Positions 13,073-16,000 of a DNA stretch of 64,000 bases are shown here, piece after piece. Each line of letters begins with the position of its first letter. Positions within the stretch are counted from its first letter, which is position 1. The notes under the pieces are model-generated. The model had not been told where the DNA came from. It searched no databases and saw only the letters and a list, made by a program, of their open reading frames with translations. The stretch comes from Xiphias gladius (Eukaryota; Chordata; Actinopteri; Istiophoriformes; Xiphiidae), in the NCBI RefSeq assembly GCF_016859285.1, contig NC_053417.1, positions 13,946,206 through 14,010,205 of the forward strand, written 5' to 3'. The position numbers and the translations under genes are program-made.

Positions 13073-16000
13073 CTAGAGGGCGAGCCAGGGGTGGCGCAAG
13101 CACTCTGCGGCCGTGGCTCTCTTCTCAGGGATCAGCTCCAGCATGGGAAGCAGGAAGTCAGTGAAGCACTCTGCTTCTTCGCGGGGCCACTCATACTTGT
13201 CGATCAGCACCTCCAGCAGTCCCCACGGCTTCAGCTTTGTGATGTGTTTCAAGTCACCTGCAGTCAACCAGACAGACAACGCAGTATCAGAGAGCCATGC
13301 AGGAACAGAGCGCAACACTTTAGAATGTGTGAACTCAGTACAAGGTAGCCAAGTCTATTAAAACATTATGGACATGCATTCTTAATATCTAGATATTACA
13401 TACAGGAAACATTTTATATTTTTAACTGTAAATGTGTTTCCCAAACAGACAATTCTTTATGTTTAATGTATGAAAGCTTTGTGCCAGTATAATTTTAAAA
13501 ACATTAGAGCATGATCCTAAGGACAGACAGAAAACTCTCACTCCAAAAACTCTAATCTCGACACTGACACTTTTTGTTTTACCTTTCTTGGTGAAAAAAT
13601 CCTTGGAATATTTGCCGGTCATTATGAGTTTGCGTGGGACACTCCCCAGCAGCTCAATGATCAGCGCTATATGGTCTACATGGCAGACCGTTGCAAGAGG
13701 AGAGGGGAAGACAGACAGGACAAACAACAGATTCATCAGACAGTGTCCCAGTCACAGGCCCAACTCTGGGTGTGTGGATGGAGGGGCTGAGGAAGAGCAG
13801 GGTCAGGCTGACAGCACACACGAGCCACACTGTTGCCGAGTTAAGGGTGCACAGACCAGAACAGCTACAAATTAAGGTATCAAACATGGCCATCAGACAT
13901 AAAAAGAGCTGTAAGGTTCTGCTGTCTCCAGAATCAATAGCTGCAGTTTTGCCTCTGCAGCCAATCAGACATTGGATGGGACGCATATTGCCAATGACAA
14001 ATTCATACTTCAGCTAGAGTGGAATTAGTAGATGTGATCTTTCCGAGATCTGTGATCTGTTGTTCAGTGAGGCACCTGTTCATGTAGTTCAATCTCCAAG
14101 CAAAAACGTCAGCTTCTCACATAAACCTAAAAGTAGTGTTTTATGACGCGTCATCACCTACAACTACAGTTATCAAATTTATATTGAACATCTTTGAAAT
14201 ATTAATCTACTAAAATCAAAATTATTTATCAAGTTTATACATTTGTTTTTTATATCTGGTGAAGCCATTTATATATATACACAACATCTTCATTTTTACA
14301 GAATCATTAATGGGTCTAAACATAGAGATCTGGACGTTTTCATCACGCTTGCAGCATTTCACAATATCGACAAATAAAAATAAAATCTCGTTGCGTTATG
14401 TTACCAAGACTCTAGGGCTAGAATTAACCACCAGGATTCTTTTCTTTATTTATCATTTCATCATGGATTTCTGCATGAAAAAATATATATCAATTATCAA
14501 ATAGCTGTCAATTAATTTTCTTTGCAACTGACTGACTAATCATTTTAGCTCTACAAGACTCTTCAAGATATTGAATGGCAGCAGAGTGGTTTTCCAAGCA
14601 CAGAGACTAGGATCCAGGTTCCAGCGCCCCCCAGCAGGCAGACATCTGTCCTCCAGAAGTGCTCTTGAGCATGATGCAAAATGCCTACAAGTTCCTGAGC
14701 CTGAGATATTTTTCCCAGGGTCAAGTATAATTATCATATTGTTGAAAATACTCAGTAACACTTGCACTTTCTGATGTCACTAAAAACACTAATAATCTGA
14801 AACTCAATTATTATACACTTTAGACCTGTGATTAACAGAAAGGGTGCAACAAAGTTTCAACAATTTGTCTGTGATTCAATTATTCTATTAGATTAAGTTA
14901 AAAGTATTCACTCCTGTGACTGACCTCACACCCTGACTCCCCTGTGGAGATCAATAGTGTCTAGTATCCAGCCAAGTCCCTTGGCTGGAACTAAGGACAT
15001 ACTGACTGTACCTCTGCCAGGCAATCGTTGGCAGAACTACTGATACTCTAATCAATGTCTGATGGCCACGCTCAAAGTAACAGACATTTATTGGTCTGTA
15101 TTGACCATTGTGCCCACTTCCCTGCGCACACCAATAGTTTTGGTAGATCTGAATGTGCTGACTGAAACCTTTACCCTTCTCCCTGCCGTCCACCACCGTT
15201 CCCACAGCAGGCCGCAGACAGAGGGGTGGCGTACCTCTCTTGGTGAAGTATTCCTGTGAGTATTTCCCACTCAGAGCATAGTGACGAGGGATTTTACCAA
15301 GCAACTCAATCATGAGAGCAAGATGGTCTGGAAATGAGGCATATCAGAGGAGGAGAGGGAAGATGGGAAGTCACAGGGAAACAGTTTTGGAGAGAGGAGA
15401 GGAGATGGCAGGTGGGAGAGGGGATAGCAGAGAGATGGCAAACGGTCATGTGGAATCAATGAATTAGGTACAATGGATGATGACAGCCTAGTATGACAAG
15501 AAGCACAGGTATTGCAAGCCTGTATTATTTTTTTCACATTTACAAGCATTTGAACACATGTAGGCCATTAACTTTCATATATGAAAACAAACCTGAAGAC
15601 TGAATCTGACTGAAAATAAGGCTTAAAGCACAGCTTTCAAAGCCATTCACACTGAAACAAGTACAGCACACTCTGATAAGGGATGAGTGATTAGTAAAAA
15701 AATCCAATAAAGCACAGCCAAACGACAGAGAAAGCAGTGGTAGGATAGTAAGCAGGAGAACTTAGGAGTGCATGTAGGTGAAAAAGTATTCACAGCTGCG
15801 GGATATGTGCCAATGAACTGAAGGTTGAATCTCAGTACATACCTGGCATGCCACAGCAGGATCAAGTCAGTACAGACAACTCAAGCTATGCAGCAAGCCA
15901 ACATTTACATAAAGAAAACATAAAAAGTAGAACAAGGAAGCGTGAGGAGTAAGTGATGAGGAGATGCAGAAAGGTAAGTGAGGAAGTGAATGGATGGCCC

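Follow-up and report, generated by a model that had tools for sequence, protein, structure and literature searches.

Tandem, probably mutually exclusive exons in the srpk1 kinase gene of Xiphias gladius, and a second pair of the same layout in another SRPK gene

The stretch of Xiphias gladius DNA considered here (the window: 64,000 nucleotides (nt) of NC_053417.1, C18:13946206-14010205) carries on its minus strand a gene for SRPK1, which together with SRPK2 phosphorylates the SR proteins that set splicing. Immediately ahead of the last coding exon of this gene lie two similar exons, A and B (Table 1), each of which encodes a version of helix alphaG and of the first part of the CMGC insert in the kinase C-lobe. 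The original prediction for this locus held the two to be tandem and probably mutually exclusive alternatives, and their identity, age, constraint and splice signals are described below.

Table 1. Features of the srpk1 exon pair and its surroundings in the window, in the order of transcription
Feature	Position in the window	Strand	Remarks
srpk1 exon upstream of the pair	16513..16582	-	D564 codon divided by the splice, with its G on this exon; donor AAG|GTATTG
AG-free zone before exon A	15330..15487	-	158 nt; CUCUCU; yTnAy motifs
Exon A	15235..15327	-	93 nt, phase 1-1; SRPK2/3-like helix alphaG and start of the CMGC insert
Intron between A and B	13676..15234	-	1559 nt (344 nt in the gene on contig C8)
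Exon B	13583..13675	-	93 nt, phase 1-1; SRPK1-like form
Intron after B	13258..13582	-	325 nt; two TGCATG motifs
Last srpk1 coding exon	13073..13257	-	ends at a TAG stop; lysines matching docking-groove residues K604 and K615 (our mapping)

Assignment of the gene to srpk1 draws on both its kinase core and its neighbours. When the window exons are joined into the A form, with most of the spacer omitted, the product is nearest to human SRPK1 (aligned residues 1-362, E 5.7e-225, 749 bits, as against 726 bits for SRPK2), and the C-lobe of the B form has the clearer preference for SRPK1 (173 bits versus 145 for SRPK2). The adjoining genes are lhfpl5, with a frame at 7370-7876 (Pfam L_HMGIC_fpl, PDB 6c14) and a possible second frame, read by eye alone, at 10075-10380, and mapk14, at approximately 31 to 36 kb of the window. 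Since lhfpl5 and mapk14 are the neighbours of SRPK1 in human 6p21, their presence fits the identification of the window gene as srpk1.

Exons A and B both have GT/AG splice sites, and agree at 19 of 32 residues and at 61 of 93 nt. The first and last residues of either exon are encoded by split codons, which are completed by a G from the exon ending at 16513 and by GT from the exon starting at 13257. In a chance control, 110 open segments of the form AG-93 nt-GT from both strands of the window were compared with B; the comparison of B with itself gives 32 of 32, A gives 19, and no further segment exceeds 6. The two exons are therefore adjacent, similar, and equal in length and phase, as homologous exons should be. 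A duplication introduced by the assembly was considered and ruled out, as 32 of the 93 nt distinguish A from B, and each exon has a single mapping position at full identity. What had been observed about the pair is confirmed by these measurements, including the coordinates, strand, phase and splice sites of the two 93-nt exons and a residue agreement estimated at about 19 of 32. The peptides, however, had been assigned in reverse order: it is the exon at 15235-15327 that is SRPK2/3-like, and the exon at 13583-13675 that is SRPK1-like.

The window pair is not the only one in this genome. A search of all 690 Mb (1298 contigs) with the A peptide as query, at E up to 0.1, identifies eight places: the two window exons, two exons on contig C8, and single exons at C21:20.98 Mb, C18:30.36 Mb, C18:4.93 Mb and C21:25.87 Mb; with this query, B-type copies beyond those found may be missed. 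The C8 exons form a second pair on the plus strand (A at 22832321-22832413, B at 22832758-22832850) in which A precedes B as in the window, both exons are 93 nt long with AG/GT sites and phase 1-1, and 344 nt separate them. As the C8 exon A matches human SRPK2 at 31 of 32 residues, the C8 gene is probably srpk2. In the srpk1-like gene at C21:20976734-20976829 (minus strand) exon B alone was found, and as this exon matches human SRPK1 at 31 of 32 residues, the gene is probably an srpk1 duplicate; both counts assume identical split codons for the end residues, D and G. In the three further SRPK genes (C18:30.36 Mb, C18:4.93 Mb and C21:25.87 Mb), an A-type exon alone is seen. Remnants of A upstream of the C21 exon B, and of B on the downstream side of the A-only exons in these three genes, were sought over approximately 1500 nt on that one side, and in no case did the best score reach the highest of 20 shuffles. 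In blastn comparisons of the window with the C8 and C21 loci the exons are matched, and of the intron sequence just one 16-nt match is returned, with an E value of 0.82.

Comparison of the exons between genes indicates that both are under protein constraint. The window and C8 copies of exon A differ at 32 nt, distributed 5/8/19 over the three codon positions, with 14 nonsynonymous and 18 synonymous differences, a nonsynonymous divergence (dN) of 0.22 and a saturated synonymous divergence (dS). For exon B, the window copy differs from that on C8 at 26 nt (7/4/15; dN 0.22, dS 0.92), and from that on C21 at 19 nt (2/1/16; dN 0.07, dS 1.23). Neutral simulations rarely retain the observed identity without acquiring a stop codon, as evidenced by 0 of 5000 runs for A between window and C8, 1 of 5000 for B between window and C8, 0 of 5000 for B between window and C21, and 6 of 5000 for the divergence of A from B inside the window. 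Splice sites and protein constraint are thus found for both copies in a comparison of paralogues of one genome, by which measure the second srpk1 exon is not decaying; the earlier statement that both exons are intact, in frame and undecayed is borne out, dN lying well below dS.

The age of the duplication was estimated from these paralogues of one genome together with human exons taken from PDB chains. In a tree of ten exons (eight fish and two human; 32 columns, LG+G4), the six A-type and four B-type exons fall on the two sides of a single branch with support of 98/97. Approximately unbiased (AU) tests reject sisterhood of the window A and B exons (p 0.0196, cost 9.7 log units), sisterhood of the C8 A and B exons (p 4.4e-6, cost 18.6 log units), and the grouping of the srpk1-type exons as a single clade (p 0.0277, cost 10.5 log units). 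Because the exons group by type and not by gene, the tree argues that the duplication had taken place before the window gene and the C8 gene separated, and if the C8 gene is srpk2, the duplication would predate the split of SRPK1 and SRPK2. Together with the constraint, this argues that A and B are a real, old and constrained tandem exon pair in srpk1.

What the choice of exon might change is suggested by the position of the pair in the protein. The docking groove residues of SRPK1 named in the sections consulted of PMC11211491 and PMC10878513 are D548, D564, E571 and K615; D564 and E571, which are also given as groove residues in PMC11809128, lie within the swapped exon, which in human numbering (mapped by us from D564 and E571) starts inside the codon for D564 and ends inside that for G595. 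Both residues are identical in A and B, in the window and on C8. The 13 residues at which the window exons differ are, by the same mapping, 566 and 569, with the rest between 575 and 594. The exon thus carries two residues of the docking groove, but these are not themselves exchanged, since D564, L568 and E571 are present in A and B of the window alike. A change of docking by the window swap, as originally suggested, is plausible; because those three residues are unchanged, the window pair should provide a fine adjustment of the alphaG-insert region, one that tunes docking rather than switching it. In the case of the C8 gene, the position equivalent to L568 differs. L568 of SRPK1 corresponds to H601 of SRPK2, and this difference is said, second-hand, in the discussion of PMC11211491 to give differing processivity. 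Both window exons encode L at this position, whereas on C8 exon A encodes H and exon B encodes L, which makes the C8 pair a possible processivity switch. The three A-only genes have H, Q and H.

Among the splice signals of the pair, the acceptor of exon A stands out. Of all gaps between AG dinucleotides in the window (minus strand, 4032; plus strand, 4095), the 158-nt zone before it is the sole one of at least 158 nt. The corresponding zone before exon B is 86 nt, and those before 12 other srpk1 acceptors are 24-58 nt; the latter were placed by eye from reading frames, one being approximate and two in the spacer uncertain, with the first exons not located. At the C8 exon A the AG-free zone extends to 280 nt, as compared to zones of 34, 27 and 19 nt where A occurs alone. 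Pyrimidines make up 80% of the final 100 nt of the intron before A in the window and 89% on C8, and the tract includes CUCUCU. Of the yTnAy motifs that resemble branch points, three of five in the window lie at the far end of the zone, at -137, -133 and -129, as do four of nine on C8, from -279 to -256 and including CTAAC at -275. An AG-free zone of at least 100 nt with a motif at its far end, as would be expected for a distant branch point, is therefore present at exon A in both genes. Large AG exclusion zones accompany distant branch points and alternative splicing, as described in the sections consulted of PMC1431707. Since both paired genes have a very long AG-free and pyrimidine-rich acceptor at A with far branch-point-like motifs, we infer that A is the regulated exon and B the default, with A perhaps held off by PTB-like proteins.

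The donors are less informative. Pairing with U1 at the A donor is -5.7 kcal/mol versus -7.6 to -10.8 kcal/mol in the three A-only genes, and the B donor is at -6.8 in the window, on C8 and on C21, where B alone was found. Among the donors of other srpk1 exons, that of the exon ending at 16513 equals A at -5.7, and three others range from -8.1 to -10.8 kcal/mol; this comparison kept four of nine donors placed by script, those labelled WDIQ, LLRSV, SGVNG, SIIRQV and PSGSA having been dropped as misplaced. Because the A donor is the same as that of the exon ending at 16513, and the B donor does not vary, donor strength is not evidence for regulation. The intron after B in the window contains two TGCATG motifs (13373-13378 and 13296-13301, minus strand), a motif of the RBFOX type. 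They are a lead only, as the motif has no common place in the two genes: on C8 it occurs upstream of A and of B, unlike in the window, where it is downstream of B.

We consider it likely that A and B represent an old tandem exon duplication whose copies were kept as alternatives, creating two SRPK1 kinases that differ beside the docking groove. The arrangement of the two resembles that of known mutually exclusive exons, and the acceptor of A looks regulated; the srpk1 pair is very probably alternatively used, and probably mutually exclusive. Under such a scheme, each srpk1 mRNA would take A or B, and rarely both or neither, with A repressed by pyrimidine-tract binders such as PTB and B used by default, and the two forms would differ in helix alphaG and in the first part of the CMGC insert, adjoining the substrate-docking groove.

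A number of observations weigh against this scheme. The use of both exons is read from genomic sequence alone, the C8 gene is known from its exons A and B alone, and the tree was built on 32 columns only. No A-like exon or frame is found in the 1500 nt upstream of the C21 exon B, and as that paralogue has B only, exon A would be dispensable there. With regard to the acceptor, the AG-free zones of the B exons are also longish (86, 78 and 57 nt), CUCUCU also precedes the exon in one A-only gene, yTnAy motifs in the window are also found near the 3' splice site of A itself, at -17 and -8, and five of the nine motifs on C8 are spread from -173 to -52. Nor is it obvious what would enforce exclusion. 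Since 93 nt is a multiple of 3, there is no frame penalty: joint inclusion (31 additional residues) and double skipping are both in frame, and would not be removed by nonsense-mediated decay (NMD). Steric exclusion does not fit either, as the A-B introns (1559 and 344 nt) exceed the length at which it could act, with AG-free zones of 86 and 78 nt at B, and the long AG-free zone sits upstream of A rather than between A and B.

These last points are what would be expected if A and B were real but independent cassettes, with exclusion a mere tendency: two exons of 93 nt and phase 1-1 can be joined in every combination without loss of frame, and neither a steric nor a frame-based mechanism separates them. 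However, each exon encodes the same helix of the folded kinase, so that two copies or none would be expected to disrupt the C-lobe, and a mutually exclusive cluster is listed for mammalian SRPK1 in the sections consulted of PMC5740500, which may or may not concern the same exon. Independent use is for these reasons unlikely. We regard as very improbable the possibility that A is a leftover no longer spliced in, with B making all of the protein. The C21 gene, which has B and no recognisable A in 1500 nt upstream, is in line with it, as is the lower U1 pairing of the A donor relative to the A-only genes, although the exon ending at 16513, which is part of both forms, pairs no better. A leftover, however, is at odds with the ratio of 14 nonsynonymous to 18 synonymous differences between the window and C8 copies of A, a conservation that none of 5000 neutral runs reached, and with the open frame, GT/AG sites and long acceptor tract of A in both genes.

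The antiquity of the pair could also be questioned, if srpk1 and the C8 gene each acquired a pair by a tandem duplication of its own, or if an SRPK2-type exon was copied into srpk1. There are 32 residues only by which to judge, and an AU p value of 0.02 for the window pair is not overwhelming. Yet the order, length and phase of the exons are the same in both genes, A and B types are split with support of 98/97, and the p value for the C8 pair is 4e-6, so that a separate origin appears improbable. A recent copy from a paralogue is ruled out by the saturated synonymous sites between the window and C8 copies of A.

The old tandem duplication favoured here has precedents, and the original statement that no description of such a pair was known needs correction. 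Hatje et al. 2017 (PMC5740500) name a mutually exclusive exon (MXE) cluster in mammalian SRPK1, which belongs to the mammalian core set and was lost in Glires. According to the sections consulted, an exon counted there as an MXE candidate if it was annotated as exclusive, resembled a neighbouring exon, or was predicted inside an intron with similar sequence and length, and the candidates were checked with RNA sequencing (RNA-seq); as the candidates are not all homologous neighbours, the SRPK1 cluster need not be the A/B pair. The fish pair may match this cluster, as the gene is the same; the cluster as described in those sections, however, concerns mammals only, and comes with no named exon position, second paralogue, pre-split age or acceptor analysis. 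The expression of srpk1a and srpk1b is treated in PMC9304896, going by the part consulted. The term 'srpk' is absent from the main text of PMC9741552, PMC4465641 and PMC7954323, and among the matching papers listed, titles and abstract openings mention neither the fish pair nor the occurrence of such pairs in two SRPK genes. To our knowledge, and within the portions of the literature consulted, the second pair, the age of the duplication, the apparently regulated acceptor of exon A, and the connection drawn to L568/H601 are new.

Two other systems resemble the SRPK exons in part, as judged from the sections consulted. For instance, exon 3 of alpha-tropomyosin (PMC1431707), like exon A, is one member of an alternative pair with a long AG-free acceptor and far branch-point motifs; in srpk1, unlike in alpha-tropomyosin, the AG-free zone precedes the first exon of the pair, and could not have the effect described there. 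The tandem exons of FYN (PMC9741552) are a kinase exon pair of which each paralogue keeps one, as in the SRPK genes, but FYN is a tyrosine kinase, and its exons lie at the SH2-kinase linker and N-lobe.

Such sorting of exons among paralogues would account for the SRPK genes with a single exon type: the A-only genes (the three in this genome and, judging by its solved protein, human SRPK2) and the B-only C21 gene would each have fixed one choice, and part of the difference between SRPK1 and SRPK2 would have begun as a splice choice. A bolder form of this idea is that the ancestral vertebrate SRPK gene chose between A and B before the SRPK1/SRPK2 split, that the L568/H601 difference is a sorted fossil of that choice, left by exon loss, and that single fish genes still make this choice, the C8 gene toggling between H and L at the residue in question; we put this forward tentatively, as a possibility that we do not quite expect to hold. 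If it does, a splicing-control kinase would itself use alternative splicing to adjust how it holds splicing factors. If one gene can exchange the groove helix by exon choice, cells could alter the processivity of SR-protein phosphorylation with their kinase genes unchanged, and a functional difference between SRPK1 and SRPK2 gains a testable origin.

A further homologous exon pair is present in the window in mapk14, where two 80-nt exons lie at 34108-34187 and 33575-33654 on the minus strand. The first form is like human p38, and the second has its best match in the solved p38a chain 3oht, which is marked as salmon in PMC4465641. The homologous exons of MAPK14 (p38alpha), as described in the part of PMC4465641 consulted, correspond to the same C-lobe stretch (alphaG and insert) as the srpk1 pair and start in phase 1, two codons away in an alignment made by eye. 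Unlike in srpk1, the exons are 80 nt each, so that joint inclusion shifts the frame, the kinase belongs to a different family, and the AG-free zones are 30 and 6 nt. The presence of exon pairs at nearly the same position of the fold in two adjacent CMGC kinase genes suggests that exon swapping has occurred there repeatedly. Upstream of mapk14, at approximately 46500-55500 on the minus strand, are frames of a cysteine-rich gene. Two of its peptides were tried; one is without any match, and the other has an Ephrin_rec_like match, together with a weak ELAPOR1-like match under the cut-off of that model.
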